The notes under the pieces are model-generated. The model searched no databases. It saw nothing but the letters and a program-made list of their open reading frames with translations, and was not told where the DNA came from. Of a DNA stretch of 44,333 bases, positions 2,228 to 22,610 are shown piece after piece. A program made the position numbers and the translations under genes. Positions within the stretch are counted from its first letter, which is position 1. Every line of letters starts with the position of its first letter. Origin of the DNA: Desulfococcaceae bacterium (GTDB lineage: Bacteria > Desulfobacterota > Desulfobacteria > Desulfobacterales > Desulfosalsimonadaceae); contig JAQYVU010000032.1 of the NCBI GenBank assembly GCA_030145385.1, positions 1 through 44,333 on the forward strand, given 5' to 3'.

Positions 2228-3152
2228 TCAAGGGATCGCCTGTGGTTTGATAATATTGATGAATCACCTGTCGTAAATTTTCATTCTCCCACAGATAAAA
2301 ATCTGTGCGTTCAAGGGCAGAGCGCAGATTTTTTTCGGAAAAACCCATGCATGCCGTCGCTTTTTCCACTGCCGGGCCCGGCGCTGTTTCAATTGACGCA
2401 ATGGCCCGGGCCAGGGCGATATTCAGCTTCCGGATCAGGGGGCCATGGGTGTCGGCAAATTTCCGATGCACAAAGGTGCCCACTTGGGGATAACCGTTGG
2501 GGTTGCCTGTATACCGTTCCCACAGGGATTTGTAACTCAGGGCATAAAAGACGGGGCCGGGTTCTTTGCCGGGTGTCAGCACCAGAGAGACAAAGGGTTC
2601 CGGCAGGGCGGCGGCCCGGATGCGATGGTGCTGCATCAGTGCCGCTGTCCCGGGAAAAGGGCTGTATTGAATGGCAATATCTTTTTTCCAGGTCAGTCCC
2701 TGGGCCCGGATAAAAAAGCGTGTCACCGCCTCCACCGGAGACCCGGGAAAGGGCAGGTAAAGCGTTTTTCCCATCAGGTCTTTTAAATCGTTTATCCGGG
2801 TGTCCGATACCAGCCAGGTCAGGCCGGACACATGGGAATTGATGATTTTTACGGGCACGCCCTGCCGGAAAAATCCCACCCCCACAGAAAGCCCCGTGCA
2901 CAGGATCTGAACCTCTCCCTTTAAAAACAGGGCATGGGCCTGACAGTGGTTGGTGAAGATTTTCAGCTCTACCCCGGGCAGGGTTTCCGTTGCCAGAATA
3001 AAGGGGATGGCCGCCGGGGTGGCCGGCGCATAGATTATTACCGGCATGCTTTCCCCGGCCTGAACCCCAAGGGTGAAGGACCATAAAATGCCCGTCAGAA
3101 CAATGACTTTTCTCCGGAAATCACAATGATGGGGCACGCCGGACAATTTCAC
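2202..3152 (-). CDS. ABC transporter substrate-binding protein, NMT1/TauA-like
   Basis: The protein has 316 residues with an N-terminal hydrophobic export signal (about residues 15-32, ending near VQAG). A mature two-lobed binding domain follows. VIIYAPATPAAIPFILA, GLSVGVGFFRQGVPVKIINS and INDLKDLMGKTLYLPFPGSP are typical of the NMT1/THI5/TauA superfamily. The start is GTG, and its GTGA overlaps the TGA of the hydrogenase gene. GAGG lies 8 bases upstream inside hydA. The tight overlap makes it very likely that hydrogenase and transporter are co-expressed. It delivers a small ligand to the permease. No lipobox is visible, so it is probably a free periplasmic protein. Confidence 0.88.
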   Translation of the reverse strand: MKLSGVPHHCDFRRKVIVLTGILWSFTLGVQAGESMPVIIYAPATPAAIPFILATETLPGVELKIFTNHCQAHALFLKGEVQILCTGLSVGVGFFRQGVPVKIINSHVSGLTWLVSDTRINDLKDLMGKTLYLPFPGSPVEAVTRFFIRAQGLTWKKDIAIQYSPFPGTAALMQHHRIRAAALPEPFVSLVLTPGKEPGPVFYALSYKSLWERYTGNPNGYPQVGTFVHRKFADTHGPLIRKLNIALARAIASIETAPGPAVEKATACMGFSEKNLRSALERTDFYLWENENLRQVIHQYYQTTGDPLNETFDAFF

Positions 3153-4948
3153 GTTCGTTCCTCAATCTCTTGCCAGATTTCCTTCATGGTATGCCTGACC
3201 AGTCGTTTGCGATCCGTGTAACCGGTGTGCAGCAGACGATGGGATTTGTGTCCCAGGGGTTTTTCAAGGTAATCGGTGTAGAGTTTCCGGATCAGGGGGT
3301 TGTTATGGGACTGACGCACGGGGGCCTCCTTGTCAATGGCGTAAAGTCCCTGACGGCGTTCTTCGCGGGCGGCCTGGTAGGCATGCTTGCTCCGGGGCTG
3401 GCCCCCGCCGCCGAGGCACCCGCCGGGGCAGGCCATGACCTCGACGAAATGGTAGGATGCCTCACCGGATTTAATGCGCGCCATGAGCTGACCCGCTGCT
3501 TTCAGGGTATGCGCCACGGCCAACTTGACTACCCCGATGCCTTCTCCGAGATCCACCGCTGCTTCCCGGATGTTTTCAAGCCCCCGCACGGCAGTGAATT
3601 CCACCTGGGAAAGCTCTTTGTCCGTCACCATCTTGTGCACCGTTCTGATGGCCGCCTCCATGACTCCACCGGTTGTGCCGAAAATCACTGCCGCGCCGGA
3701 GTAATCCCCCATCCAGTGGTTATCAAATGCTGAGGGCGCCAGTTCTGCCGGATTTAGGCCCTCGCGCTTTAAGAGCCTTGCAAACTCCCGGGTGGTGAGT
3801 ACCACATCCACCTCGGGGCGCTCATCCTTTATAAATTCATCGCGTTTGGCCTCTCCTTTTTTGGCCGTGCAGGGCATGATGGAGATCACCCGCATGCGGC
3901 AGGCATCGATCTCCATTTTTTCCGCCAGATAGGTTTTGGCAATGGCGCCGAAGCATTGCTGGGGAGACTTGGTGGTGGACACATGCTCCTTCATCTCCGG
4001 ATAGTTTTTTTCCATATAACTGATCCATGCCGGACAGCAGGAGGTGAACATGGGCAGGGGGGCACTGCTTTTCACTCGTTGCAAGAGCTCGCTGCTCTCT
4101 TCCATGATCACCAGGTCGGCGGTGAAATTGGTGTCCAGCACCACATCAGCCCCGAGTTTTTTCAATGCAGTGATGATTTTGCCTTCCACATTGGTGCCGG
4201 CGGGCAGGTTAAACTCTTCGCCAAGGGCGATGCGGATGGCCGGGGCAAACTGAAACACGGTGACCATGTCCGGATCATACAGATAATCCATGGCCTCTTC
4301 AATGTCGTCTTTTTCCGCCAGGGCCCCCACCGGACACACGAGAATACACTGGCCGCACCCCACGCAGTCGGAGCTTCCCAGGGGCAGATGATCCCGGACG
4401 CTGATCTGGGTGGACAGGCCCTTTTCCGTGACAACCAGGGCATCCACGCCCTGGATTTCCCGGCACACATTAACGCACCGGAAGCATCGGATGCACTTGC
4501 TCATGTCCCGCACCACTGATGGTGATGAGGTGTCCCGGGATCGCTGGAGATAAAAATGGGGATAGTGGTAACGGGTCTGCTGGAGCCCCACAAACTGGGC
4601 CACATCCTGGAGTTCGCAGTTGCCGTGACGGATGCAGCTGGCACAGTCCTGGTTGTGGTCTGCCAGGAGCAGTTCCACCTGCAGGCGCTGCATCTCACGG
4701 ACCTTGGGGGTTCGGGTTAAAACGGCCATGCCTGCTTCCATGGGGGTGGTACACGAGGTGACAATGTGATGGGCCGGATCATTTTTGCGTTTCATGTCCA
4801 CAAGGCACACCCGGCAGGTGCCCGGGGCATGATTGATATCGGCCATTTCGCAGAGGGTGGGGATAAAATGCCCCGTGCGCTTGGCCACGCTCAATATGGT
4901 TTCATTGTCCTGGAATTCAACCTTTTTTCCATTTATAGAACCGATCAT
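3149..4948 (-). CDS. hydA: [FeFe] hydrogenase catalytic subunit, HndD/HydA type
   Basis: It catalyses reversible proton reduction to H2. An N-terminal [2Fe-2S] domain has cysteines around residues 35-68 (CEMADINHAPGTCRVC). A His-ligated [4Fe-4S] site follows (DHNQDCASCIRHGNC, near residue 100), then two [4Fe-4S] clusters (CIRCFRCVNVC and CVGCGQCILVC). The H-cluster domain has all three signatures: TSCCPAW near residue 305, MPCTAKKGE and MACPGGCLGGGGQP. The C-terminal small-subunit-like region is present (NPLIRKLYTDYLEKP, then LLHTGY). This is a full modular M3 enzyme, predicted soluble since no export signal is seen. I place the start at the ATG at 4948, with GGAG 8 bases upstream; a TTG at 4954 is in frame but worse placed. 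It lies 12 bases after the flavoprotein gene, its probable electron partner. The maturases HydE, HydF and HydG are not in the window. Confidence 0.97.
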   Translation of the reverse strand: MIGSINGKKVEFQDNETILSVAKRTGHFIPTLCEMADINHAPGTCRVCLVDMKRKNDPAHHIVTSCTTPMEAGMAVLTRTPKVREMQRLQVELLLADHNQDCASCIRHGNCELQDVAQFVGLQQTRYHYPHFYLQRSRDTSSPSVVRDMSKCIRCFRCVNVCREIQGVDALVVTEKGLSTQISVRDHLPLGSSDCVGCGQCILVCPVGALAEKDDIEEAMDYLYDPDMVTVFQFAPAIRIALGEEFNLPAGTNVEGKIITALKKLGADVVLDTNFTADLVIMEESSELLQRVKSSAPLPMFTSCCPAWISYMEKNYPEMKEHVSTTKSPQQCFGAIAKTYLAEKMEIDACRMRVISIMPCTAKKGEAKRDEFIKDERPEVDVVLTTREFARLLKREGLNPAELAPSAFDNHWMGDYSGAAVIFGTTGGVMEAAIRTVHKMVTDKELSQVEFTAVRGLENIREAAVDLGEGIGVVKLAVAHTLKAAGQLMARIKSGEASYHFVEVMACPGGCLGGGGQPRSKHAYQAAREERRQGLYAIDKEAPVRQSHNNPLIRKLYTDYLEKPLGHKSHRLLHTGYTDRKRLVRHTMKEIWQEIEERT

Positions 4949-4960
4949 ATTCAAGACTCC

Positions 4961-6946
4961 TTATTGCTCAGTGATTACGGAATAGACCCGATAGCAGCGC
5001 ATGCACCGCTGGGCTTCATGGTAGGCTTCCTCAACGGAAATGGGTTTTTCCACCTCTTCAAAGATCTGCTTTCTCACATCGGGGTCCAGCTCCCGGACCT
5101 TGACCCGGTATTCATGCTTCACCGGAATATTCACCCCCGAGTCGATCATGGGCTGGACATCCGCCACCAGTCGGCTCATTCTGTCCTTGGGAAAAAACCT
5201 AACCCGGCCAAAGGTGAGATAATCATCAATGCACCGGGCCCCCTGTTCGCCCTGGGCCATTGCCTGGACCAGGGTGGCAGGTCCCGTGACGCAGTCGCCA
5301 CCGGCGAAAACCCCCTTGCGGGTGGTCATCAGCGAGTCATTTTTCACCTTGATGGTGCCCCAGCTGTTAAAGGCCACCCCGTCTTCATCCGGGGTGATGA
5401 AGCCCAGTTCCACCTTTTGACCGATGGCCGGAATCACATGATCAGTGTCCAGGACAAACTCCGAACCGTCAACGGGGGTGACGCTTCTGCGCCCGCTCTC
5501 ATCCGGGTCTCCCAGGCTCATTTTAACCAGCTCCACCGCCTTGATGGTTCCCTCTTCGGAGACGATTCTTGTGGGATGAGTCAGGAAATGAAAGATCACC
5601 CCCTCTTTTTCCGCAGCTTCCACCTCTTCATGGTCGGCGGGCATCTCGTTTTGGCTTCGGCGATACACCAGATGCACTTCCTTTACTCCCATGCGAAGGG
5701 CCGAGCGGACGCAGTCCATGGCCACGTTTCCGCCCCCCACCACCACCATTTTTTTTCCCAGCTTCATGGGAATACCCTTGTCAATGTAGTCGTGGTTGAT
5801 GCGCAAAAGAAAATCCACGCCGAAATCATATCCCTTTAAGTGGGGATCTTCTCCGGCGGCCCGGATCATCTTTCCCTTGTGAGTGCCAATGGCCAGAAAT
5901 ATGGCTTTATATCCGTTGCTGAACAGGCCCTTTACCGTGAAATCCCGGCCCATACGCCGGTTGTAGAAAATCTGGCCCCCCATGGTTTCTATGATGCTGA
6001 TTTCCTTGTTGAGCACGTCGTTGGGCAGGCGGTATTCCGGAATACCTGTGGCCGCCATACCGCCGGGCACGGATTTGGCCTCGTACACATCAACAGGATA
6101 GCCTTTGAGCAGCAGATGGTAGGCTGCGGCAATACCTGCAGGACCGGTGCCGACTACCGCCACCTTTAAATCCGGATCTTTTTTTTCAGGAATCATGTAA
6201 GAGGAAAACCAATCATGGGTGACATCCTGCTCATGGTCGGCCACAAACCGTTTAAGCACCTTGATGCCCACGGCCTCGTCCACCTGGGTCCGGCGGCAGG
6301 CCATTTCACAGAACCTAACACACACACGGCCGCAGGTGGCGGCCATGGGATATTTCTGCAGAATCACTCCCAGGGAATGGGTGAACTTGCCGTCCTTTAT
6401 ATAATCAATGTACCGGGGCACATCCACCTTGGATGGGCAGGCTTCAATGCAGGGTGCCGAAACATAAGTGGTGCAGTGCTGGCGGACCACGGGGGTGGCC
6501 CCGGCAATTTCTTCTTCAAGGGTTTCCCTGAAATACCGGATCATTTCAAGCAGCGCCACAGTGGCCGTCTGCCCCAGTCCGCACAGGGAGGTGGTGTGCA
6601 CATGTTCAGCAATGGATGCAATTTCATCCAGCATTTCCGGGGTACCATCCCCCCGGGTCAGAAGTTCCAGCTTGGACTTGATAATCTGGGTGCCCACCCG
6701 GCAGGGGGTGCACTTGCCGCAGGATTCCCGGGCCACCCGTTCCATGTACTGAAGGGCGGCATCCAGCAGATTGACATTCTTTTCAAAAATAAAAAATCCA
6801 TGACCGCCAAAAAACGCCTTGATGGGATTTCCCGGATTGAATTCGTCAAAATCGCTGAACTCAGGGTATTCTTCAATCTCAAACACCTTTTTTCTGCGAT
6901 TATCAATGACCGCATTGTCCCAGGCTCCGAAAATTACTTTTGCCAT
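4961..6946 (-). CDS. NuoF C-terminal / GltD-type fusion flavoprotein, hydrogenase electron-transfer subunit
   Basis: This 661-residue iron-sulfur flavoprotein is likely to pass electrons between NAD(P)H and the hydrogenase. Residues 40-145 match only the C-terminal cluster domain of NuoF/HydB (ESCGKCTPCRVG, then SLCGLGQT). The FMN and NADH domains of NuoF are absent. Residues 150-240 form a GltD-like N-terminal cluster domain (APCIEACPSKVDVPRYI and cysteines at about 205, 209, 213 and 217). The rest is a two-Rossmann glutamate-synthase-small-subunit-like oxidoreductase with an FAD site (VVGTGPAGIAAAYHL, about residue 264) and a nucleotide site (VVVGGGNVAMDCVRSALRMG). The C-terminus ends with CMRCYR. 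GltD homology suggests NADPH, but that is inference. GAGAGGA precedes the ATG. It is the first gene of the operon. Confidence 0.92.
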   Translation of the reverse strand: MAKVIFGAWDNAVIDNRRKKVFEIEEYPEFSDFDEFNPGNPIKAFFGGHGFFIFEKNVNLLDAALQYMERVARESCGKCTPCRVGTQIIKSKLELLTRGDGTPEMLDEIASIAEHVHTTSLCGLGQTATVALLEMIRYFRETLEEEIAGATPVVRQHCTTYVSAPCIEACPSKVDVPRYIDYIKDGKFTHSLGVILQKYPMAATCGRVCVRFCEMACRRTQVDEAVGIKVLKRFVADHEQDVTHDWFSSYMIPEKKDPDLKVAVVGTGPAGIAAAYHLLLKGYPVDVYEAKSVPGGMAATGIPEYRLPNDVLNKEISIIETMGGQIFYNRRMGRDFTVKGLFSNGYKAIFLAIGTHKGKMIRAAGEDPHLKGYDFGVDFLLRINHDYIDKGIPMKLGKKMVVVGGGNVAMDCVRSALRMGVKEVHLVYRRSQNEMPADHEEVEAAEKEGVIFHFLTHPTRIVSEEGTIKAVELVKMSLGDPDESGRRSVTPVDGSEFVLDTDHVIPAIGQKVELGFITPDEDGVAFNSWGTIKVKNDSLMTTRKGVFAGGDCVTGPATLVQAMAQGEQGARCIDDYLTFGRVRFFPKDRMSRLVADVQPMIDSGVNIPVKHEYRVKVRELDPDVRKQIFEEVEKPISVEEAYHEAQRCMRCYRVYSVITEQ

Positions 6947-7291
6947 TTCGCGTCCTCTCTTTTTTTGCCGGAAATAAATCTATGGTTCCGGTATGATCTT
7001 ATTCGTATCCCGTTTTGTAATCCGCTGTTTATCTTTTTCGCGCTTGCGGAGAAATTCTTTCTTATGATGGCATTGATGCGTGATGTGCCAAACAGAACCT
7101 GGATTTCTCAAAGCAACTGAATATGAATACAAAACCTGTGCCAGAACAGCCCGATTCTGTATGATTTATTCATATCTGAAATAATGAGATGTTTTTCAGG
7201 TGGGTTTAGCCAAAGGATCTTTATGAATTCAATGCAAAATGTCAAAGCCCTGAGATCGGGCGATTGCTTGCATCCGTATTTTTATTTCGAT

Positions 7292-7330
7292 TTTGAATTT
7301 TTACGAAAACCAGTTTCGCAAAATTTCAAA
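7292..7330. promoter_or_regulatory. 39-bp inverted repeat, putative activator (UAS) site, copy A
   Basis: The arm TTTGAATTTTTACGAAA, a 5-base loop and TTTCGCAAAATTTCAAA form an inverted repeat matching at 15 of 17 positions per arm. The same 39-bp element occurs at 20238-20276. In both places the first base of the repeat lies exactly 123 bases before the GG of a -24/-12 site. That geometry fits an upstream binding site for a sigma-54 activator. A hairpin in RNA is an alternative reading, but the fixed spacing to the promoter favours a DNA site. Confidence 0.65.
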
Positions 7331-7413
7331 TTTTATAGGGTTTCTGCATGATCTGAATGGGGGGTAATCGATAAGCATTTGAATAAAAGTTAAATTAATC
7401 AATGTTTATTCAG

Positions 7414-7429
7414 CGGCATGCATCATGCA
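7414..7429 (+). promoter_or_regulatory. Putative sigma-54 promoter (-24/-12) for CDF-NifX
   Basis: The sequence cGGCATGCATCATGCa has GG at 7415-7416 and GC at 7427-7428, separated by exactly 10 bases. This is the spacing of the consensus TGGCACG-N4-TTGCA. An identical GGCATGCATCATGCA occurs upstream of phaE. The transcript would start near 7440. No activator gene is visible in the window. Confidence 0.6.
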
Positions 7430-7579: not shown

Positions 7580-8776
7580 ATGCTGGAACACAAAGAAAAA
7601 ATCGGTGTTTATTCCGTGGGGATCAATCTGCTTCTGGTGAGCATCAAGGGAATTCTTGCATATTTTTCCGGTTCCATGGCCCTGGTTGCGGATGCGATTC
7701 ATTCCTCGACCGATGTGATTTCATCTATTACGGTGCTTGCCGGAATCAAAATATCTAAAAGAAAAAACAAAAATTTTCCTTACGGGCTGTATAAGGTTGA
7801 AAATGTCGTTTCTTTGGTAATATCCATTTTTATTTTTTTTGCCGGCTACGAGATCGTAAAAACGGTTTTTTTAAAACCGGTTGAGCTCAAATCCGAATAC
7901 CTGTTTTATGCCATGGCCGGCGTAATCGTCACCATGGGGATTACATTTGTTTTTTCCCGCTATGAACTGCGTCAGGGCCTGGTGACCGGTTCTCCGAGCC
8001 TGATTGCCGATGCCAAGCATATCCGGACGGACATGCTGTTATCAGCCGTTATTTTAACCGGTCTTTTAGGGGGATGCTTTGGATTAAATTTAGACAGGAT
8101 TTCGGCTGTTATTGTTGTGATTATCGCTTTAAAAGCCGGACTCGAAGTTTTTGTCGATGCGTTTCGGGTCCTGCTCGATGTTTCGCTTGATTTTGAAACA
8201 ATGGACTGTGTGAAAACCATTATCCTGGAAAATCCGGGTGTGATTTCAATCAACGGGCTCTGGGGGCGAAATTCCGGCCAGTATAAATTCATCGAGGCGG
8301 ATATTGTTATTAAGGCAAAAAATCTGGAAAAGGCGTATGCGGTCAGCCGCAAGATTGAAAATGAAATCAGGGCACAAGTATCACATGTAGACCATATTCT
8401 GATCCATTATATGCCCCAGGAAAAAGCGACATACGGTGTGGCTGTTCCCTTAAATGAGGACCAGACGAGCCTATCTGAACATTTCGGGGGGGCGCCGTAT
8501 TTTTATCTTGCCGCAATCAGGACAGAAGATAACGCCGTTTTATCGGAAACCTTTCTTTGCAATCCTTTTGCCGAAGAAGAAAAGGGAAAAGGAATTAAAA
8601 TAAGTGAATGGCTTCTGGAAAAAGGCGTTGACAGGGTTTATACCCCTAAGGGGTTTGAGGGAAAAGGTCCGGGATATGTGTTCTCGGATGCGGATGTTGA
8701 AGTGATCGTGGCCGGAGACAGACGTCTTGATGATATCCGGTCTGCTTTTTTAAAAAAAGAGGATACTTTTGGCTGA
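7580..8776 (+). CDS. Cation diffusion facilitator fused to a NifX/NifB-like (FeMo-co biosynthesis) domain
   Basis: The protein has 398 residues. Residues 1-280 are a CDF-type divalent metal/proton antiporter with several membrane spans. It has the two metal-site motifs VADAIHSSTD (helix 2) and IADAKHIRTD (helix 5), plus the C-terminal cytoplasmic dimerisation domain (ADIVIKAKNLEKAYAVSRKI, HILIHY). Residues 287-398 match the dinitrogenase iron-molybdenum cofactor domain family: GVAVPLNEDQTSLSEHFGGA, then GIKISEWLLEKGVDRVYTPK. It probably exports Fe2+, Mn2+, Zn2+ or a similar ion from the cytoplasm; the NifX-like tail may sense or bind a metal cluster. Such fusions are known in anaerobes; the exact metal is unknown. 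The ATG at 7580 is preceded by GAGAGGG. A putative sigma-54 promoter lies 165 bases upstream. Confidence 0.9.
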   Translation: MLEHKEKIGVYSVGINLLLVSIKGILAYFSGSMALVADAIHSSTDVISSITVLAGIKISKRKNKNFPYGLYKVENVVSLVISIFIFFAGYEIVKTVFLKPVELKSEYLFYAMAGVIVTMGITFVFSRYELRQGLVTGSPSLIADAKHIRTDMLLSAVILTGLLGGCFGLNLDRISAVIVVIIALKAGLEVFVDAFRVLLDVSLDFETMDCVKTIILENPGVISINGLWGRNSGQYKFIEADIVIKAKNLEKAYAVSRKIENEIRAQVSHVDHILIHYMPQEKATYGVAVPLNEDQTSLSEHFGGAPYFYLAAIRTEDNAVLSETFLCNPFAEEEKGKGIKISEWLLEKGVDRVYTPKGFEGKGPGYVFSDADVEVIVAGDRRLDDIRSAFLKKEDTFG

Positions 8777-8909
8777 TCACATTTTTGATTTCATATTTCT
8801 AAAAATATTTTGAATTTTTTCTAAATTTTGCCATATCACAAAAAAAATTATCAGCGATGATCCCGGATATCAATTTGTATTTATGATATATTTCGAAATT
8901 CTAAGTTAC

Positions 8910-8925
8910 TGGTATGTTTTATGCA
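8910..8925 (+). promoter_or_regulatory. Putative sigma-54 promoter upstream of the small P-loop protein
   Basis: The sequence tGGTATGTTTTATGCa has GG at 8911-8912 and GC at 8923-8924, spaced by 10 bases. It differs from the sites at 7414 and 20360 at only a few positions. About 100 bases upstream, TTTGAATTTTTTCTAAA (8809-8825) resembles the left arm of the 39-bp inverted repeat, but no matching right arm is present. Support is weaker than for the two complete modules. Confidence 0.42.
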
Positions 8926-9001: not shown

Positions 9002-9265
9002 ATGCCCAGGGGAGATGAAGCCGGATCATACGGCCAGGAATCGGGAATGGGAAGAGTGCGGGGCGGCGGTTTTGGAGCAGGCCCCGGTAATAACATTGAC
9101 AGGACATCTAAAAAAAATGCTGTCAAAGCTTTACAAGCTCAAACACTACACCACGCTATGGCATCAATTAAACACAAATTTTTGTTTATGAGCACTCAGG
9201 GGCGAGTGGGTACAACCAGCGTTTTAGCAGTTTTGGCCATGGCACTTTCAAAAGAGAGTTCGTGA
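9002..9265 (+). CDS. Small Gly-rich protein ending in a degenerate Mrp/MinD-type P-loop (truncated remnant)
   Basis: This frame encodes 87 residues. The ATG at 9002 has a near-perfect AGGAGGTGA upstream, so it is preferred over the in-frame GTG at 8993. Residues 1-32 (MPRGDEAGSYGQESGMGR and following Gly-rich stretch) resemble the small Gly/Met-rich proteins encoded beside NifX-like and Mrp ATPase genes. Residues 55-84 (IKHKFLFMSTQGRVGTTSVL) align with the P-loop start of Mrp/NBP35 ATPases (typically KHKIxVMSGKGGVGKS), but both catalytic lysines are lost and the rest of the ATPase is missing. It looks like a fused relic of an iron-sulfur carrier cluster that still has a strong ribosome site. 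It cannot hydrolyse ATP as a normal Mrp. Whether the short product is functional is unknown. Confidence 0.6.
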   Translation: MPRGDEAGSYGQESGMGRVRGGGFGAGPGNNIDRTSKKNAVKALQAQTLHHAMASIKHKFLFMSTQGRVGTTSVLAVLAMALSKESS

Positions 9266-9314
9266 TACTGAAAAGATGCAAATAGGCTGAAAAATTAATG
9301 GATTGATATTTGAG

Positions 9315-10931
9315 ATGGAAATCTGTCAACAGTCGGAACTTTATAAGCAAATGGAAACCCGGGATTTTTATCCTCATCCGGCCGACACCATAGAACTGCG
9401 GGAAACGCACATTTCCATGGTGTTTCTGGCGGGCAGCTTTGTCTATAAAATCAAGAAACCGGTCAACCTTGGATTTCTTGATTTCACCACCCTGGAAAAT
9501 CGTGAGTATTATTGCCGACAGGAAGTGCTTTTAAATCGACGACTGACGCAAAATGTATACCTTGATGTGGTTGCCGTTACCTTTAAAAATGGCACTTTTC
9601 ATCTGGGCGGCACGGGTTCGGTTGTGGAATATGCGGTGAAAATGCGCCGGCTTTCCGATACCTGTTCTATGTTACAGCGGCTAAGCACAAATCAAATCCA
9701 TAAAAAGGAAGTTGAGGCGTTGGCAAAAATACTGGCCAGATTTTATAACACTGCCACTGCTGAGAGACAGGTGAATGATTTCGGAACATTGGAAATCATT
9801 GCCACCAATTGCGAAGATAATTTCAGACAAACGGCCATATTTGCGAAAAAATTATTTGATGAACAATTGTTTAAGATTGTTCGATTTTCCATGAACTCGT
9901 TTTTACATCGTCACAAACAGCTTTTTGATAATCGGATTAAAACAAAAAAAAATCGGGATTGCCACGGTGATTTGAGAGCAGGGCATATCTATTATACAGA
10001 TGACGGTATTCAGATCATTGACTGCATTGAATTCAATGATTGCTTCAGGTTTCAGGATGTGGCCTCGGACCTGGCTTTTTTGGCCATGGATCTGGATTAC
10101 GAGGGATATGACAGGATTTCGGAGATTCTTTTGAATGCTTATGTCCGGTATTCCAAAGATTTCAATATTTTTGTTATAATTAATTTTTATAAATGCTATC
10201 GCGCCATGGTTCGATTTAAAGTTAATTGTATCCGGCTGCAGGCCAAAGACCTTTCGGGAGCAAAAAGAAACCGGCTGCTTGCAGGAATGGAGAAATATTT
10301 AAATCTTGCTTACCAATATGCGATGAAGTTTACCCGTCCGATGCTCTGGGTTGTTTGCGGCATGCCGGCGTCAGGCAAAAGCACGATTTCTGAAGAACTT
10401 GCCAATGCATTCGGGATCAAAGTATTTAATTCAGACGTGATTCGTAAGAAAATGTTCGGTTCAATAATGCCGTTTGAAACCGGAATCTACTCAAATGGGG
10501 CAACCTCTCTTACTTACGGCAGACTGTTACTTCTGGCTCAGGAAGAGATTGAAAAAGGAAATTCCGTTATTTTAGATGCCACATTTAAGACAGCGCATCA
10601 TCGCAATGAGGCCAACCTTCTGGCAAAGGATATGGACGCTGACATCATGTTTGTCGAATGTGTTGCACCGGAAAATCTGCTGAAAAAACGGCTGCTGCTG
10701 CGAGAAAACAAACAATTGATCTCTGATGCCAGGATTTCAATCTATGAATCTTTTAAGCAGCAGTTTGAGTCGTTTGAAGAAATAAGCGATGAGCAGCACA
10801 TCATCGTTTATACTCAAAATCTGTTGGATGAATGTATGCAGCGAATTCTTAATTATGATTTCTCAAAGCCGGAGCAGATCAGGAACTGCGTTATTCATCC
10901 ATTGAAGTATTCGAATACGTTTTCAGGATGA
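9315..10931 (+). CDS. Bifunctional APH-like kinase / AAA (zeta-toxin-like) P-loop kinase
   Basis: The protein has 538 residues in two kinase-like domains. Residues 1-340 resemble the aminoglycoside phosphotransferase family: a nucleotide-binding lobe (VFLAGSFVYKIKKPVN), then the catalytic loop CHGDLRAGH near residue 217 and the IIDCIEFND metal-binding segment. Residues 345-510 form an AAA_33-type P-loop kinase with Walker A GMPASGKST near residue 350 and the basic lid RLLLRENKQ. This two-domain architecture recurs in bacteria, often beside universal stress genes; its substrate is not established. Antibiotic resistance should not be assumed. I start at the ATG at 9315; an in-frame TTG lies at 9303, and neither has a strong ribosome site. 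It lies upstream of two Usp genes in the same direction. Confidence 0.85.
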   Translation: MEICQQSELYKQMETRDFYPHPADTIELRETHISMVFLAGSFVYKIKKPVNLGFLDFTTLENREYYCRQEVLLNRRLTQNVYLDVVAVTFKNGTFHLGGTGSVVEYAVKMRRLSDTCSMLQRLSTNQIHKKEVEALAKILARFYNTATAERQVNDFGTLEIIATNCEDNFRQTAIFAKKLFDEQLFKIVRFSMNSFLHRHKQLFDNRIKTKKNRDCHGDLRAGHIYYTDDGIQIIDCIEFNDCFRFQDVASDLAFLAMDLDYEGYDRISEILLNAYVRYSKDFNIFVIINFYKCYRAMVRFKVNCIRLQAKDLSGAKRNRLLAGMEKYLNLAYQYAMKFTRPMLWVVCGMPASGKSTISEELANAFGIKVFNSDVIRKKMFGSIMPFETGIYSNGATSLTYGRLLLLAQEEIEKGNSVILDATFKTAHHRNEANLLAKDMDADIMFVECVAPENLLKKRLLLRENKQLISDARISIYESFKQQFESFEEISDEQHIIVYTQNLLDECMQRILNYDFSKPEQIRNCVIHPLKYSNTFSG

Positions 10932-11001
10932 AATGCCTTGTTCCTGAACCGCTCTGAGCAGTGAGAAAGCCGCTTTAATCATTATTATGAAGGAGAAAAA
11001 A

Positions 11002-12012
11002 ATGTTTAAAAATATTTTAGCTGCCACCGATCTTGTCAGTGTTGCCGATCCGGTGGTGATGGCGGCGGCAAACGTTGCCCAAAAATATCAGGCAAAATTC
11101 CATATACTCCATGTTTTGGAATCAGCCCACGCGGATAATCGGTTGCTTGTAAAACATTTTAAAACCGGAAAAGAGATTATTGTCGATGCGGATTATGAAA
11201 AAGAGGTTCATAAACAAATTGAAAATGTCTACGCCGGAATTCTGGAACCATCTGAAAATAGGGAAATCTGTGTAATGTCCGGCTTCCCATGGGAAGAGAT
11301 TATTCGCTGGTCCAGGTATCTGAATGCAAATATGATTGTCATGGGTCCGCATTCCGGACGGGCAGCGGAAAAAGGGGTTGTCCGAATCGCAGGAAAAATC
11401 GGGAGCACCGTGGAAGGGGTTGTCATGCGGGAAAACTGCCCGGTCATGATCGTCAACCTGACGGCTCAAAACAATATGGCTGAATTTAAAAATATTGTGG
11501 TGGGAGTTGATTTTTCCGTATCCTGTGAATGCGCTTTATCGTTGGCTGCAACGATGGCTGAAACTTCCGGCGCGTGTATTTATCCCTATCATATGATTCC
11601 TGTGGTTCCGTATCCCAAGTACAGCCGGGCGGATTATGAGGCGGATCTGGCCGCCGCAAAGCAGCGGCTTGAAGAATTCTGCTCAAAATTTTTAAATGAC
11701 GTGCCTCATGCGTATAATGTCTGGGGCGGCGCATTGGCCCACCTTGAGATCATTAAATGTGCTGGAAAAAATAAAGCTGATTTGATTATTATGGGATCTC
11801 ATACAAAGGCAAGGGCCGGAAAATGGTATGCCGGCAGTGTGGTCGAACGGACAGGATTTCGGGCAGATTGTCCGGTCATTCTTGTCACGGATCCGGATGC
11901 CCTGTTGGCATGGGATGAGAGTGCATTGCTGAAATCACAAATCGGAAAAGATAAGGATCGCATGATACATGTGTTTGGCAGGCGGAAAACAAAGATAAAA
12001 TCCGGACGATAA
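11002..12012 (+). CDS. Tandem-domain universal stress protein (UspA family)
   Basis: This 336-residue cytoplasmic protein has two UspA folds (about residues 1-155 and 160-305). Each begins with an alternating hydrophobic strand (MFKNILAATDL, then FKNIVVGVDFS). Each ends with the nucleotide-site region (IVMGPHSGRAAEKG, then IIMGSHTKARAGKW) and the terminal strand CPVMIV or CPVILV. The in-frame ATG at 10987 sits just before GGAG, which is the ribosome site for the ATG at 11002, so the shorter start is chosen. The first domain has a spaced variant of the ATP-binding GxxG motif. Its role is probably survival under stress or growth arrest. It lies 30 bases before a second Usp gene. Confidence 0.92.
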   Translation: MFKNILAATDLVSVADPVVMAAANVAQKYQAKFHILHVLESAHADNRLLVKHFKTGKEIIVDADYEKEVHKQIENVYAGILEPSENREICVMSGFPWEEIIRWSRYLNANMIVMGPHSGRAAEKGVVRIAGKIGSTVEGVVMRENCPVMIVNLTAQNNMAEFKNIVVGVDFSVSCECALSLAATMAETSGACIYPYHMIPVVPYPKYSRADYEADLAAAKQRLEEFCSKFLNDVPHAYNVWGGALAHLEIIKCAGKNKADLIIMGSHTKARAGKWYAGSVVERTGFRADCPVILVTDPDALLAWDESALLKSQIGKDKDRMIHVFGRRKTKIKSGR

Positions 12013-12042
12013 GAAATGGATTTTTTACTTTGAGGAGGGTGT

Positions 12043-12981
12043 ATGACAATTCAAAAAAAGTTGCTGGTATTGGTGGATGGTTCCGAACGATCCATACAAA
12101 CGGTTAATTATGTAAAGGATTTTATGCCTGTTGATGAGAATACGCACATTGTTCTGTTTCATGTGTTTAACGGCATGCCGGAAGAATATCCGGCGTTGAC
12201 GGAAAATCCAAATTGTCATAGTGAGGTGCGTCTATTAAGAGAGAGACAAGCGGAACAACAAAGAGCAACCAGGGAGTATCTTGAACGGGCGAAAAACATT
12301 TTGATCTCAGGCGGGTTTTCGGAACGGTTAATTGAAATTAAATTCCATTCCCTGAAACAAGGGGTCGCCAGAGACATAATAAAAGAAGCGAAGAAAGGTT
12401 ACAGTGCAGTCGTCCTGAGAAGGCGGGGAATGGGTGCGCTGGAAAGTATTATTCTTGGCAGTGTTGCCGTCAAGTTGCTACAATCTTTATCATTTATCCC
12501 GATTATCATCGTGGGGCAAACCCCGTCCGTTAAGAAACTTTTGTTTGCCGTGGATACTTCTCCTGCTTCGATGAAAGCGGTTGAATGTACGGCCTCATTG
12601 TTAGGCGGCAATGGGTATGAGGCCTGTATTTTTCATACGATTTTAAGTGTGGAGACGATAGATTTTCAACTATTTGGAAAAAATGATTTGGAAATGTCTA
12701 ATCACTGTATTGAAGCATTAAAATCAAAAGCGGCGTTAACGTTTAAGGCTGTCAAAGACATGTTGACGGTATCTGGTTTTGAATCTGAAAAAATATCTGA
12801 AAAAATAATTACCGGTGTAAGCAGTCGATCCGGTGCCATTGTCGAAGAAGCGGAAGGCGGCGGCTACGGCACAATTGTCGTCGGCCGAAGGGGGCTTTCT
12901 AAAGTTGAGGCTTTTTTCATGGGCAGGGTCGGTCATAAGGTTGTTTATAAAGGTAAAAAATTTACGGTCTGGGTTATCTGA
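12043..12981 (+). CDS. Second tandem-domain universal stress protein (UspA family)
   Basis: The protein has 312 residues with two UspA folds: KKLLVLVDGSERSIQTVNYV starts the first and VKKLLFAVDTSPASMKAVEC the second. The second domain has a clean ATP-type motif (VVGRRGLSKVEAFFMGRVG). In the first, the motif reads LRRRGMGALESIILGS, so its first glycine is replaced. GAGGAGGG lies a few bases before the ATG. It follows the first Usp gene closely and probably shares its transcript. The two proteins are only distantly alike, so this is not a recent duplication. Confidence 0.92.
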   Translation: MTIQKKLLVLVDGSERSIQTVNYVKDFMPVDENTHIVLFHVFNGMPEEYPALTENPNCHSEVRLLRERQAEQQRATREYLERAKNILISGGFSERLIEIKFHSLKQGVARDIIKEAKKGYSAVVLRRRGMGALESIILGSVAVKLLQSLSFIPIIIVGQTPSVKKLLFAVDTSPASMKAVECTASLLGGNGYEACIFHTILSVETIDFQLFGKNDLEMSNHCIEALKSKAALTFKAVKDMLTVSGFESEKISEKIITGVSSRSGAIVEEAEGGGYGTIVVGRRGLSKVEAFFMGRVGHKVVYKGKKFTVWVI

Positions 12982-14093: not shown

Positions 14094-14223
14094 GGTTATC
14101 CTTTTTTTTATCGTATAGGTGTTTTGTTTGATATGTTAAATTTTGAAGATTTTGAAAAAAAATGTTCTGCATATCCATTGTGGTTAAGTTGTGTTTAAAA
14201 AAATAGATTTTGCTGAAATGTCG

Positions 14224-14284: not shown

Positions 14285-14318
14285 TGCCTGAGTGAAGTGG
14301 ATAACTATGAAAAATATT

Positions 14319-14405: not shown

Positions 14406-14414
14406 TTACATGAA

Positions 14415-14618: not shown

Positions 14619-14666
14619 AAGAACCTCCTTTTAAATAATTTAAAATTGTTAGCTGGTTGAAAAAAC

Positions 14667-17444
14667 TTAACTTTTTATGTTTGAATAGTTTTTTTCATGG
14701 ATAAAAACCAGCCGCCCGTTATGAAAACCAAAATAAAAATGGAACCATTTGTATGCCTCGGCCATGATGAAAATTGGTAAAGAAACCAGAAAGATGATCC
14801 CCCAGTCCGACCAACCAAGCGGCACAGTGTGCAGGGCATTTTGTAAAAACGGCACATAAAGTGCGCATAAGAGGCCGCCGAAACTGACTACCCAGGCGAT
14901 CAGCAAAAACGGATTGGAAAAAAAGCCGGTTGTGGCAAGGGGCGCACGCAGGGCACGAAAGTTAAACACATTGATCATTTCCAGCACAATGATGCCGGTG
15001 AAAGCAACTGTCTGTGAGGTATACACTGCATCTGCCCCTTTTCCGGCAAAGAGAGAGTGATGGAACAGCCAGAGAGTTGCTGCCCCCATATATCCTCCCA
15101 GCAGTATAATCATCAGGATGCCTGCCTTATTCAGGATCGGTTCTCTGTCCGATCGGGGCGGCCGTTTCATAATACCTTTTTCAACCGGCTCCAGGCCGAG
15201 AGCCACTGCAGTCACGCCGTCAGTGACCAGATTTATCCACAAAATCTGCACGGGCAGCAGAATCAGCGGCCCGTCCAGCAGGATGTTGATGAAAATAGCC
15301 ACCACTTCCCCCATATTGGAAGACAGCAGGTAACGCACAAATTTTTGGATATTATCGTACTGGCGCCGGCCTTCCTCCACCGCGCCGATGATGGAGGCAA
15401 AGTTGTCATCCGTGAGTATCATGTCGGATGCCCCCTTGGCCACGTCCGTGCCCCGTAGTCCCATGGCAATACCGATATCCGCTTTTTTCAAAGCCGGTGC
15501 ATCATTCACCCCATCACCGGTCATGGCAACCACCGCTCCCATTTTTTTGAGCATACTCACAATGCGCAGTTTGTGTTCCGGGGTGGTTCGCGCAAATAAA
15601 ATATTTTGTTTCAGGATGTTTTTCAGGACATTATCATTCATTTGGTCAAGTTCCGGTCCGCTGACAGCCCGTATGACATTCAAGCCAATGGCGCGGGCAA
15701 TGGACTTTGCCGTGGCAGATGCATCCCCGGTAATCATTATAACGCGGATGCCTGCGCTGCGGGCCAGGCGGATGGCCTCCGGAACTTCGCGATGGGGCGG
15801 ATCAATGATTCCGACAATGCCGAGCAATGTGAGTTCCTGTTCCACGAGTTTTTCATCTGCAACCAGGTCTTTCGGAAGGATTCGACGCGCCAGGGCAAGT
15901 GTCCGCAAGCCTTGATCGGCCAGTGCCTGATAAGCGGCAATCGTAGACTCCCGGTCTATAGCGGTCATTCCCCGATCTTTGTTGTTGTCTGCAATGCGCG
16001 TACATCGTTCCAGGATTACTTCCGGCGCCCCCTTGATATGGGCAATTAATCTTTCCTGAACCTGCTCTATGATTGTCATGCGTTTTCGGCGGGAATTAAA
16101 AGAAAATTCATTGACCAGGCCGGCGTGTTCATCCGGATGCAGGCCGTTTTTTGCCGCTGCGGTCAGCAGGGAGGCTTCGGTGGGTTCGCCGATGTCGTGC
16201 CAGCCTTTTTCATCTTTGAAAATCTGTGCATGATTGCAGACTACGCCGGTTTTGAGAAGAGCCAGCAGGTCATGTCGTTTCCGGCAATCGATCGGGAGGT
16301 TGTTTTGTTCAAAATGACCCTGGGGATCATAACCGGTTCCGGTGACGGTCAGTTCCCCGGACGGCAGCCAGATGTGCGTCACGGTCATTTCATTTTGGGT
16401 CAGGGTTCCTGTTTTATCCGTACAGATAACCGTGGCCGATCCCAGTGTTTCAGCTGCCTGCAATCGCCGGAGCAGGGCGCGCTGTTTCACCATGGCGCGG
16501 ATACCCAATGCCAACGTGATTGTGACCACTGCGGGTAAACCTTCCGGGACTACCGCCACCGCCAGGGAGATACCGGTGAGAAACATTTCCATCAAAGGCC
16601 TGCCAAGAAGCCATCCGGCAACCGCCACCACAACGGATATCAAGATTGAGAATATGCCCATCTGTTTTCCCAGCACGGCCAGTTTACGCTGCAGCGGGGT
16701 GGGTTCCTGTTCGATGGTCAGGGTTAATCGGGCAATGCGACCGAATTCAGTTGCCATACCGGTGGATGTGACCACTCCCCGGGCACGTCCGTTGGTGACT
16801 TCCGTGCCCATCCAGGCCATGGATGACTGTTCGGCCAGGGGGGCGTTTTCATCAACCGGCTTTGTTTGTTTGGCAACGGATTCTGATTCACCGGTCAGTG
16901 ATGATTCATCCATTCTCAGTTCCCATGCTTCAAACAGCCGCAGATCACCCGGCGTTCTGTCACCGGTTTCAAGCACCACAATGTCGCCGGGGACCAGTTC
17001 TTTGGCATCGATCTTTTGTTCCCGGCCGTCTCGAACTACCCGGCAATGAGGTGCCAGCATTTTCTGAAGTGCTTCAATGGCTTTTTCCGCTTTCCATTCC
17101 TGAATGAAGCCCAATATGCCGTTTAAAATCACGATCACCATAATCGTTACCGCATCCGCCATTTCACCTAATACCACGGAGATAGATGCCGCTGCCAGCA
17201 GAATGAAAATCAGTACATCCATAAATTGTCGGCCCAGCACCATGTAGCAGTGTACCTTGCGCCTGTTTTCCAGGGTGTTGGTACCGTATTTTCCCAAACG
17301 ATCTGCTGCTTCACGGGAGTTTAACCCGTTTTGAGGATCCGTAACCAGTTGCAGGATTGTTGTTTCGGCATCCGAGTTGTGCCAGGCCTGGCTCTCAGAT
17401 CCATCATCGGTTGCGTTAGCGGTTGAATTGACATGCTGAATCAT
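14667..17444 (-). CDS. P2A-type cation-transporting ATPase (Ca2+-ATPase-like)
   Basis: This 925-residue membrane pump has the N-terminal cation-ATPase domain (residues 20-90), the actuator loop with SSLTGES, and the phosphorylation site CTDKTGTLT with Asp343. The hinge MTGDGVNDAPALKKADIG and ten predicted membrane helices complete it. Helix 4 has VVPEGLPAVVTITLALG and helix 6 has NLVTDGVTAVALGLEP. Both carry residues that bind Ca2+ in SERCA/PacL-like pumps, so Ca2+ (or Mn2+) export is likely. There is no N-terminal heavy-metal domain. I choose the ATG at 17444, preceded by AAGGA; an upstream in-frame ATG at 17489 has no ribosome site. Confidence 0.94.
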   Translation of the reverse strand: MIQHVNSTANATDDGSESQAWHNSDAETTILQLVTDPQNGLNSREAADRLGKYGTNTLENRRKVHCYMVLGRQFMDVLIFILLAAASISVVLGEMADAVTIMVIVILNGILGFIQEWKAEKAIEALQKMLAPHCRVVRDGREQKIDAKELVPGDIVVLETGDRTPGDLRLFEAWELRMDESSLTGESESVAKQTKPVDENAPLAEQSSMAWMGTEVTNGRARGVVTSTGMATEFGRIARLTLTIEQEPTPLQRKLAVLGKQMGIFSILISVVVAVAGWLLGRPLMEMFLTGISLAVAVVPEGLPAVVTITLALGIRAMVKQRALLRRLQAAETLGSATVICTDKTGTLTQNEMTVTHIWLPSGELTVTGTGYDPQGHFEQNNLPIDCRKRHDLLALLKTGVVCNHAQIFKDEKGWHDIGEPTEASLLTAAAKNGLHPDEHAGLVNEFSFNSRRKRMTIIEQVQERLIAHIKGAPEVILERCTRIADNNKDRGMTAIDRESTIAAYQALADQGLRTLALARRILPKDLVADEKLVEQELTLLGIVGIIDPPHREVPEAIRLARSAGIRVIMITGDASATAKSIARAIGLNVIRAVSGPELDQMNDNVLKNILKQNILFARTTPEHKLRIVSMLKKMGAVVAMTGDGVNDAPALKKADIGIAMGLRGTDVAKGASDMILTDDNFASIIGAVEEGRRQYDNIQKFVRYLLSSNMGEVVAIFINILLDGPLILLPVQILWINLVTDGVTAVALGLEPVEKGIMKRPPRSDREPILNKAGILMIILLGGYMGAATLWLFHHSLFAGKGADAVYTSQTVAFTGIIVLEMINVFNFRALRAPLATTGFFSNPFLLIAWVVSFGGLLCALYVPFLQNALHTVPLGWSDWGIIFLVSLPIFIMAEAYKWFHFYFGFHNGRLVFIHEKNYSNIKS

Positions 17445-17856
17445 GAGTTGTCCTTGATTTTCCCATACAGCAGGGCCAGGCCTATACATAAATTGCTAGT
17501 TATTTCTTTTTTCTTTAGTTAAACGTTTACAATTTATTTCTGCATCAAATATGCCATCCAATTCAAGTTCGTATGTATGATAAAAATTCAAAGACTTGGG
17601 TCTGATGCAGCTGGTCGTCATGGCAGGGTGCGGGCAAAATTAGAAAAATTACGATATCCATTATTGAAAAATCTCGAAATCAGGGCAGGGTGCAGGGATT
17701 TTTGCTCACTGTTTTTATTTGGCATTGAAACGGTTTTATCCCGTGCTGAACAATTTTCATGTTTGCGGCAAGCTTAAAACAACTAATGGTTGAAATGGAA
17801 CACCAGGGAGTCAGGGGCTGCGACACCGTCAATACAGAGAACCTCTGAATCCCCGA

Positions 17857-20221: not shown

Positions 20222-20237
20222 ATGTTATTCTACTGGT

Positions 20238-20276
20238 TTTGAAATTTTACGAAAAAAGGTTTCGCAAATTTTCAAA
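20238..20276. promoter_or_regulatory. 39-bp inverted repeat, putative activator (UAS) site, copy B
   Basis: The arm TTTGAAATTTTACGAAA, a 5-base loop and TTTCGCAAATTTTCAAA match each other at 15 of 17 positions. The element is nearly the same as copy A at 7292-7330, and its start lies 123 bases before the GG of the next -24/-12 site, exactly as in copy A. It lies directly after the aldehyde oxidoreductase relic, and a terminator for that lost gene is a weaker alternative. Confidence 0.65.
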
Positions 20277-20359
20277 TTTCATGGATTCACCCTGGGATTT
20301 AAGTGCCGTTTGTATTCTAAATATTTCATAAAATTAGCTATTCGAAGTTTAGTATGCAG

Positions 20360-20375
20360 TGGCATGCATCATGCA
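20360..20375 (+). promoter_or_regulatory. Putative sigma-54 promoter for phaE-phaC-phasin
   Basis: The sequence tGGCATGCATCATGCa has GG at 20361-20362 and GC at 20373-20374 with 10 bases between. Its 15-base core is identical to the site before CDF-NifX. Transcription would start near 20386, about 113 bases before phaE. Confidence 0.6.
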
Positions 20376-20498: not shown

Positions 20499-21374
20499 AT
20501 GAAAAATGAAAATTTCCAAGATATGGTAAATCCGCTGGCAGAAACCATGCAGGCATCCATTGATTTTTGGGGGCAAATGGCATCATCGGGCAGCAGCATA
20601 GCGGAAATGTACTCGAATCAGGCCGTTGAATGCATGGAGAATGGATCATTTGCCAAGGGGTTTTTGGGTAATCCGGCTCAGGCGCTGTGTCAAACATTGG
20701 CTGCCAATTTTTTAGGCTATGATATCAACGGTTTTGAAACGTTGACCCGAACCAATCAGGAAATATGGAATAATTTTATCAGCACGGGCCATCAATGGTC
20801 GGAAAGTTTGTCCGGTATCGAACAGTTTAATTCTTTGCTTCCGCTTGACGACACCTCCAGGGATATAATCAGCACGTTTAAAACGGCCTTTGAAAATGTT
20901 TTCGGAAAATTTACAAATATTCCGCAATTGGGCTTAACCCGTTCGTATCAGGAAAAAATGCTTCAGATGTTTGACAAATATAATCTTTTTCAAAGCAATA
21001 TTTCGGAGTTGGGGATGCTGCTGTATTTGCCGGTCAAAAATGCGTTCAAAACCATACGGCAAGAACTTTTGGGCACTATCGAGGGTAAAAAATATTCCGG
21101 AAATATAAAAGATACCTATAAACGGTGGGTGGAGATTTTGGAACAAAATTTTATGACTCTGTACAAGTCGCCGGAATATACCAAAGAGATGGCAAAGACC
21201 ATCCAGGCCATGGAAGGCTACATCAAGGTAAGAGATGATATTCTTTCCGATTGTCTCAAACTGTTTCCTATTCCCACACAAAAGGATGCGGAAGGCGTTT
21301 ATAAAGATATTTATGAATTGAAAAAAAAGGTTCGAAAACTTGAAAAACAATTGTCGGAATCCGCGCAGGGCTGA
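20499..21374 (+). CDS. phaE: Class III PHA synthase subunit PhaE
   Basis: This 291-residue, mostly helical protein has no catalytic motif. It is the accessory subunit needed by class III PhaC for activity and granule binding. The N-terminal region (residues 1-60) is phasin-like (ASIDFWGQMASSGSSIAEM). The central segment SLLPLDDTSRDIISTFKTAF and the conserved KTIRQELLGTIEGK region follow. The C-terminus (ELKKKVRKLEKQLSE, about residues 270-287) is a short coiled coil typical of PhaE. It has no membrane span. The ATG at 20499 is chosen over the in-frame TTG at 20490; GAGGAG lies about 10 bases upstream. phaC follows after 84 bases. Confidence 0.85.
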   Translation: MKNENFQDMVNPLAETMQASIDFWGQMASSGSSIAEMYSNQAVECMENGSFAKGFLGNPAQALCQTLAANFLGYDINGFETLTRTNQEIWNNFISTGHQWSESLSGIEQFNSLLPLDDTSRDIISTFKTAFENVFGKFTNIPQLGLTRSYQEKMLQMFDKYNLFQSNISELGMLLYLPVKNAFKTIRQELLGTIEGKKYSGNIKDTYKRWVEILEQNFMTLYKSPEYTKEMAKTIQAMEGYIKVRDDILSDCLKLFPIPTQKDAEGVYKDIYELKKKVRKLEKQLSESAQG

Positions 21375-21458
21375 CGCCTGGATTAAATTGTGCCCTGCAG
21401 AGAACATACGAATCTATCAACAACTAATTAAAGTTTTGTAAAGGTAAAAGGGGGATTT

Positions 21459-22610
21459 ATGCAAAACAATTATTCTCCGTTAAAAGATTATTTTTCAAAA
21501 ATTACTCAAAATGCGCCATGGATGAACGGCCTGACGCCTGAAGCTTCGGATGTGCTGATGAGTTCCCTGGACACAAATATCGCAACAACGCCGTTTGAGA
21601 TTGTTTATGAAGAAGATCATGTCAAGTTAAAACATTTCAAACCGGAAAAAACCGGTATCCTGGCGTCACCGCTGTTGATCAACTATGCGCTGATCAACAA
21701 AGAAACCATGCTGGATCTGCAGCCCGGCCGGAGCCTGATTCAAAAGCTGTTAAGCGCCGGTATCGAACTCTATGTTGTTGACTGGGGGTATCCCACAAAA
21801 AAAGACCAATACCTGACCATCGATGATCATGTGAACTGGTATCTGGGCAATATGGTGGATTTTGTCTGCAAAAGACATTATCAGCCTAACCTCAATCTCA
21901 TGGGCATCTGCATGGGGGGGACGTTTTGTGTGATGTATGCGGCCCTTCACCCGGAAAAAGTTAAAAATCTGATTACCACCGTTACGCCGACTAATTTTGA
22001 TACGGATCAGGGACTTTTGCATGTCTGGATGAAGGATGTGAACGTAACGTCCATGATGGAAACATTCGGCAATATGCCCGGCGATCTGATGAACCTGGGG
22101 TTTTTGATGTTAAATCCTGCGCGCCTGATGATTGATAAATACGAAGGATTTATGGAGAACCTGAACAACCGGGAATTTGTGGAAAATTTTATGCGCATGG
22201 AAAAGTGGATTTTCGACAGCCCGGATGTGCCCGGCGAAACGTTTAAGCAGTTTGTTGAAGACTGTTATCAGAACAATCTGCTCATTCAGAATAAAATGCA
22301 GCTGGACGGGAAAACCATTGATCTTAAAAAGATCACCATGCCGGTTTTAAATATCTACGGCGAACTGGATCATCTGGTGCCGCCGGAAGCCGCTGAAATG
22401 CTGCCGGAAAAAGTGGGGAGTAAAGATTGTGAAAATATGTGCATCAAAACCGGTCATATCGGTATTTATGTGAGTTCCAAATCACAAAAAGAATTTGCAC
22501 CCAAAATCATCAGCTGGCTGGAAAAACGTGACAACCAAGCAAATAAACCAACCGAAAAATTTAAAGGAGGACAAAATGTTACAAAATCCATTGATGAAAC
22601 AGATGCTTGA
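21459..22610 (+). CDS. phaC: Class III poly(3-hydroxyalkanoate) synthase subunit PhaC
   Basis: This 383-residue alpha/beta-hydrolase-fold polymerase has nucleophile Cys151 in GICMGG, Asp304 in YGELDHLVPP and His333 in TGHIGIYV. The spacing matches class III synthases such as that of Allochromatium (about 355 residues). The core ends near residue 360. The final 25 or so residues are a lineage-specific tail whose codons overlap the start of the phasin gene by 35 bases. It works together with PhaE, encoded just upstream. The window thus encodes two different PHA synthase classes. Confidence 0.94.
   Translation: MQNNYSPLKDYFSKITQNAPWMNGLTPEASDVLMSSLDTNIATTPFEIVYEEDHVKLKHFKPEKTGILASPLLINYALINKETMLDLQPGRSLIQKLLSAGIELYVVDWGYPTKKDQYLTIDDHVNWYLGNMVDFVCKRHYQPNLNLMGICMGGTFCVMYAALHPEKVKNLITTVTPTNFDTDQGLLHVWMKDVNVTSMMETFGNMPGDLMNLGFLMLNPARLMIDKYEGFMENLNNREFVENFMRMEKWIFDSPDVPGETFKQFVEDCYQNNLLIQNKMQLDGKTIDLKKITMPVLNIYGELDHLVPPEAAEMLPEKVGSKDCENMCIKTGHIGIYVSSKSQKEFAPKIISWLEKRDNQANKPTEKFKGGQNVTKSIDETDA

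Follow-up and report, generated by a model that had tools for sequence, protein, structure and literature searches.

The window (the whole stretch of DNA analysed, 44,333 nucleotides from a Desulfococcaceae bacterium) contains four promoter-like modules, named A, H, E and B. Each is composed of an upstream element and a -24/-12 sigma-54-like site, and A, E and B also carry an IHF-like block (Table 1). The genes behind them encode a CDF-NifX fusion, an operon with AAA_33/APH and Usp proteins, a calcium-type P-type ATPase and the class III PhaE-PhaC pair. When the window was scanned with a weight matrix of the element, these four places scored above 17.3, the highest value reached by 200 Markov sequences, and three of them did so on both strands because they are palindromic. 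The class I phaC gene at 18125 was considered as a further target and rejected. A good sigma-54-like site (at 17858, within 17857-17872 of the plus strand) lies 5' of it without the upstream element (score -18), and another activator may be the partner of this site. Elsewhere in the window, a [FeFe]-hydrogenase-like large subunit gene adjoins a gene for a protein that fuses an NADH_4Fe-4S domain with a pyridine nucleotide oxidoreductase (3149-6946, minus strand). Three large MMPL-type transporter genes stand in a row, one of them on the minus strand, and are followed by a LolA-like gene (33802-42424).

Table 1. Modules in the window and the genes that they precede.
Feature	Position	Strand	Remark
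Copy A, putative upstream activating element, two tandem dyads	7291..7331	+	PWM 38.5; site in PWM training set
Copy A, IHF-like block, 43 bases before GG	7372..7384	+	8/9 positions of YAANNNNTTGATW
Copy A, -24/-12 sigma-54-like promoter, GG 7415	7414..7429	+	predicted start near 7440
Putative target A: CDF cation efflux protein, C-terminal NifX-type domain	7580..8776	+	
Module H, upstream element, weaker	8785..8825	+	PWM 21.7; R1 51.4 bits; in training set
Module H, -24/-12 sigma-54-like promoter, GG 8911	8910..8925	+	
Putative target H, operon: 87-aa ORF, AAA_33/APH protein, two tandem-Usp proteins	9002..12981	+	
Module E, upstream element	17639..17679	-	PWM 37.6; R1 63.3 bits; in training set
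Module E, IHF-like block, 43 bases before GG	17586..17598	-	8/9 positions
Module E, -24/-12 sigma-54-like promoter, GG 17555	17541..17556	-	
Putative target E: calcium-type P-type ATPase	14667..17489	-	765 bits, just below PMR1-type cut-off 798
Copy B, upstream element	20237..20277	+	PWM 46.3; in training set
Copy B, IHF-like block, 43 bases before GG	20318..20330	+	8/9 positions
Copy B, -24/-12 sigma-54-like promoter, GG 20361	20360..20375	+	
Putative target B: class III PHA synthase PhaE + PhaC	20499..22610	+	

The sequence-only reading of this DNA had paired a 39-bp inverted repeat with a -24/-12 site at A and B. The pairing was found as described and goes beyond chance. The repeats occupy 7292-7330 and 20238-20276, and in both copies the distance from repeat start to GG is 123 bases, with a gap of 84 bases. 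The repeat pattern (30 fixed bases, up to three mismatches allowed) matched the window at A and B only, and it matched none of 100 dinucleotide shuffles. In the 5.24 Mb of the own genome (G000) it was found at three places, namely A, B and a copy C (G000:C72:4056-4094), while the reversed control gave 0 matches in the whole own genome. Copy C also lies 123 bases from a GGCATGCATCATGCA, on its minus strand. A joint pattern (half repeat, N84 and GGCATN6TGC, up to three mismatches) had five matches in the own genome, which fell on A, on B, on C, on the P-ATPase site (17542-17656, minus strand) and on the palindrome of C, used oddly in the opposite direction. With 85 N instead of 84, no match was found in the own genome. 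The -24/-12-like pattern alone (up to three mismatches) gave 11 matches in the window versus 7.6 expected, a number equalled in 20 of 100 shuffles. The significance lies in the combination of element and -24/-12 site; the -24/-12-like sequence alone is not significant. The copies had been called nearly identical, which is true of the repeat and the -24/-12 site but not of the full 143 bases, where A and B are 71% identical. The genes downstream of the two copies are unrelated, as had been noted.

The element was then scored by a weight matrix seeded by matches to the consensus of the own copies, with the own sites included. The scored sites came from the own genome, from the same-genus genome G035 and from the neighbourhoods of orthologs of the candidate regulator described below. 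Of 213 sigma-54-like sites, 38 had an element above the cut-off of 14 bits, two scored 10-14 and the next scored 4. Base-shuffled upstream regions (20 per site) reached 11.1 bits at best against the 14-bit cut. The element starts at -123 to -125 from GG at 29 of the 38 element-bearing sites. A random spacing had been named as one result that would overturn the reading, and the geometry is not random. The consensus of the three own copies alone pointed the same way: at 21 of 29 sigma-54-like sites with a match of at least 20 of 34 bases, this match lay 121-127 bases before GG, a raw count over 22 loci that include the own C190 and G035. The sigma-54 core consensus is TGGCAC-N5-TTGCW. The modules have a GG-N10-GC core close to it and an upstream site at a defined distance, as is usual for sigma-54-dependent promoters. 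GG, A and TGC were invariant in 32 aligned modules from 16 genomes, GG and GC having been requirements for picking them. The fixed spacing supports the earlier proposal of an activator-dependent sigma-54 regulon, in which transcription would depend on RpoN.

The element appears to contain two TTYGAAATTTTTCKAA-type dyads whose symmetry centres are about 23 bp apart. The centres lie near positions 8.5-9 and 31.5 of 41, with scores of 0.50-0.52 and 0.64, and lesser peaks were seen at position 20 (the whole palindrome, 0.48) and position 26.5 (0.56). The sequence of the 39-bp inverted repeat is present at both A and B. A single palindrome is less likely as the binding unit because the element reads as two like-oriented dyads in other genomes, and the two-dyad reading appears the better one among several possible readings. 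About 43 bases before GG, a conserved block like TAA-N4-TTGAAT resembles the IHF consensus in reverse; this consensus is given as WATCARxxxxTTR in PMC3897727. In 17 of the 32 modules, versus 11% of shuffles, at least 8 of the 9 positions of the IHF-like YAANNNNTTGATW were matched, and 12 of these 17 have it at exactly -43. Of nine sites in the own genome, four (A, B, C and E) carry the block at -43 with 8 of 9 positions, and at the other five (H, D, C163, F and C23) it is poor (5-7 of 9). Taken together, the dyads, the frequent IHF-like block and the -24/-12 site match the arrangement typical of sigma-54 promoters that an enhancer-binding protein (EBP) activates.

A sequence-only profile, R1, was built from 16 genomes and used to score up to eight candidates per genome, with rough E-values. 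At least eight R1 modules were found in the own genome: the four in the window, two in one divergent intergenic region of contig C72, one on C163 that is followed by a 77-aa ORF and a gene for a class III cytochrome c, and a weak one (10.7 bits) on C190 beside the kinase gene. A regulon linking the CDF-NifX gene to PHA storage had been proposed. Both carry modules, and the set is larger, with four promoters in the window. A further own module, weak and at the odd spacing of -155, stands before a single-domain receiver gene. It was placed after the regulator gene because the ends of C190 and C23 share an exact stretch of 144 bases (end of L047, start of L170), and these two contigs are probably adjacent. 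One of the two C72 modules faces genes for a 257-aa protein, which matched no family and by eye looks like an outer-membrane protein, and for a fused EutB-EutC protein. The other faces genes for a class III cytochrome c, for a protein with a methylene-THF reductase C-terminal domain and for a 235-aa protein that likewise matched no family. The two modules at L031 3718-4638 point opposite ways in one intergenic region of about 0.9 kb. The fused EutB-EutC gene under module C (L031 562-2853, minus strand) is ethanolamine ammonia-lyase-like, and its product has an N-terminus that is signal-peptide-like by eye. Beyond the own genome, R1 matched 143 of 389 genomes of the order at E 0.001. At E 1e-5 it matched 13 of 394 other genomes in a phylum-wide draw, all 13 outside the order. 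The joint pattern also matched contig C446 of G035. Its matches with three mismatches in G020 and G024 were taken as chance because neither genome has an R1 match at E 0.001.

The candidate activator belongs to the NtrC-type response regulators, and its gene stands with that of a histidine kinase on contig C190 of the own genome. The protein is 85% identical to the regulator P0001 of G035, where one module is divergent from the pair of PAS histidine kinase and P0001, and another stands before a P-ATPase gene. Both regulators have receiver, sigma-54 interaction and Fis-type HTH domains, and P0001 has GAFSGA, a one-residue variant of the GAFTGA loop. No named EBP equivalog (AtoC, NtrC, ZraR and others) was reached, the best being AtoC with 399 bits against a cut-off of 714, and the best 25 of 116 NCBIfam rows were all under their cut-offs. 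Most of the orthologs examined have a highly similar recognition-helix region, NHHT(F/Y)RYRRKK. One ortholog, in G627 (L198 7191-8029), is split into two overlapping ORFs near a contig end. In a survey of the kinases at 27 loci, no kinase adjoined the regulator in 4. The catalytic half is kept across lineages and the N-terminal sensor part differs. Among 23 aligned kinases, all four cysteines of the PAS domain of the own kinase were seen only in that kinase and in the one of G035; two of these cysteines are present in 2 kinases and the other two in 12-13. This distribution rules out the four-cysteine PAS as a general sensor theme.

Regulator and module were compared over the genomes. In the family of the window, an ortholog at E 1e-110 was found in 2 of 36 genomes, G000 and G035, the same two that have strong modules. 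Twelve further genomes of the family lack an ortholog at this cut-off and show a single weak R1 match each (E 4e-5 to 1e-3), which may be either real or chance. Relatives of P0001 at E 1e-125 occurred in 107 of the 389 genomes of the order. Twenty ortholog loci were fetched (top-scoring, outside the family, one per genome); 16 had at least one element and 4 had none. A strong module (E 1e-8) was found in 33 genomes of the order, of which 25 also have the regulator (Fisher p 2e-9), and 82 of the 107 ortholog-bearing genomes had no module at this level. After removal of the 22 genomes that had been inspected ahead of the construction of R1, the cell counts were 7, 8, 78 and 274, and the association was not significant (p 0.053). 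Presence in a genome is thus weak evidence of association outside the inspected genomes, so that proximity and a blind test carry the claim.

For proximity, the regulator-bearing genomes of the order whose loci had not been fetched before R1 were used, and 16 genomes contributed. Among the modules listed (to E 1.8e-5), 21 of 45 lay less than 15 kb from the regulator gene where 0.6 would be expected if modules were spread uniformly over 4.5 Mb containing at most two regulator genes; some genomes have two close modules. The blind test used the 13 genomes outside the order, picked by R1 alone. An ortholog with 55-69% identity lay near the module in 11 of them, the exceptions being G517 and G561. 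The module followed the regulator gene within about 0.6 kb in 10 of these 11 cases. R1 may favour one orthologous promoter because it was trained on modules near the regulator, many of them directly 3' of its gene. The modules A, B, E and H of the window do not adjoin the regulator. The data indicate that the repeated module stands next to the same two-component regulator in many related bacteria, which makes this regulator the likely activator.

On these grounds, we believe with good confidence that the module is the promoter of a sigma-54 regulon switched on by the NtrC-type regulator of C190. The regulator would be phosphorylated via its histidine kinase and would bind the two tandem dyads. 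Where the -43 block is present, IHF or an IHF-like protein would bend the DNA there. The activator would then make contact with the sigma-54 RNA polymerase at the -24/-12 site, which lies about 104 bases 3' of the element centre. The genes switched on would be the CDF-NifX gene, the AAA_33/Usp operon, the P-ATPase gene and PhaE-PhaC in the window, and cytochrome c3, outer-membrane/EutBC-like and regulator-linked genes elsewhere.

The same sigma-54 module could instead be activated by another EBP, with the linked regulator being merely a target or a neighbour. The own genome has 43 EBP-domain genes, and the modules often stand directly 3' of the regulator, so part of the linkage may amount to one orthologous promoter. 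An ortholog at E 1e-125 was initially missing in 8 of the 33 strong-module genomes. In G292 the gene is cut by a contig end, and in 7 of the 33 no ortholog was found even with all first-look candidates scored. Two of these 7 are one-contig assemblies (G183 and G203), and in G183 a 45% identical regulator lies 11 kb from the module. Such genomes either use a different activator or lack the gene in the assembly. Against activation by another EBP stands the linkage to this regulator in 11 of 13 blind genomes. The element was also found at 0 of 90 sigma-54-like sites around 20 other EBP loci (208 kb), a control that is loose and partly drawn from other phyla. Moreover, no close second copy of the HTH segment of the regulator exists in the own genome; the best other segment has 34% identity, and a match on C23 reflects the contig overlap. 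Activation by a different EBP is therefore rather improbable in our view.

Recent duplication of a mobile or recombined cassette, in which the geometry would come from copying instead of function, could account for the 71% identity of A and B and for the extra flanking bases that B and C share beside the element, but it is very hard to reconcile with modules that precede unrelated genes and whose conserved bases, over 32 modules of 16 genomes, lie mainly in the dyads, the -43 block and the -24/-12 site. A role of the palindrome as a repressor operator or another kind of site, with an incidental -24/-12 likeness beside it, is just as improbable. A single -24/-12-like pattern is common by chance, which speaks for this reading, but element and site co-occur with the sharp drop in scores given above.

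The preferred reading, a sigma-54 regulon under the C190 regulator, raises the matter of what its targets do. Among 108 downstream operon genes, the families included Response_reg (18), Usp (9), HATPase_c (7), ParA/NUBPL (5), TauE (4), NifX (4), prismane (3), ATP-grasp acyl-CoA ligase (3) and P-ATPase (2). These are raw counts from a simple ORF caller with the own operons included, and any enrichment is an impression. The target set suggests survival under energy or redox stress. NifX-type domains recur (4 of 108; window 7580-8776 and L145 19087-19509), fused to the CDF transporter in the window, and ParA/NUBPL proteins account for 5 of 108. If the reading is true, PHA storage, metal and calcium transport and Usp proteins are tied to one switch in largely uncultured bacteria. 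For one EBP of the Desulfobacteria there is now a probable DNA code together with a list of targets, and the rigid geometry adds to making direct tests simple.

A regulon dependent on sigma-54 and an EBP is, as a kind, textbook knowledge. The DNA code, the target set of the regulator and its spread were not found in the literature searched; no description of the motif or regulon appeared in the open-access papers searched, and few subscription papers were covered. Among the bacteria surveyed in PMC12316311, Desulfobacteria have the largest number of enhancer-binding proteins. EBP regulons of another sulfate reducer, Desulfovibrio vulgaris Hildenborough, use the same promoter class (PMC4641369), and the main text of that paper does not contain 'TTCGAA', 'universal stress', 'hybrid cluster' or 'tandem'. 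In the orp1 promoter of D. vulgaris, as described in PMC3897727, the palindrome of the EBP DVU2106 is found at -131, and IHF binds functionally between this palindrome and the sigma-54 site. The layout and distance are similar to ours, whereas the EBP and targets are different. IHF was shown by experiment for orp, whereas for our module its role would follow from the block at -43.

By its working, the closest known system appears to be NmpR of Myxococcus xanthus (PMC11841059). NmpR is an NtrC-like regulator with tandem dyads 5' of sigma-54 promoters, and its targets, which act in oxygen use, include a Usp and a P-type ATPase (PMC11841059). Our system shares the NtrC-like regulator, the two tandem dyads, the Usp and P-type ATPase targets and a stress theme, which is oxygen in the case of NmpR. 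The differences lie in the dyads, which are GCGCA-N5-TGCGC in NmpR but TTYGAAA-type here, in the oxygen-use targets of NmpR and in the NmpR kinase, which has a protoglobin domain. The module consensus is TTYGAAATTTTTCKAA-type and has no GCGCA-N5-TGCGC dyads.

The DosR dormancy regulon of Mycobacterium tuberculosis includes APH/AAA_33, Usp, calcium-type P-ATPase, methyltransferase and carbon storage genes. The stretch 9002-17489 of the window, where APH/AAA_33, two Usp, a methyltransferase and a calcium-type P-ATPase stand side by side, resembles this gene set. DosR itself is a LuxR-type regulator and acts on other promoters. We tentatively suggest, as a possibility on the speculative side, a sigma-54 regulon that is found in several orders of the phylum and responds to anaerobic energy or redox stress. 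It would have a single conserved regulator and DNA code. The sensor halves of its kinases would differ by lineage, and so would its mix of Usp, receiver, NifX/Mrp, hybrid-cluster, P-ATPase and carbon-storage genes. Such a regulon would be a sigma-54 counterpart of mycobacterial dormancy control.
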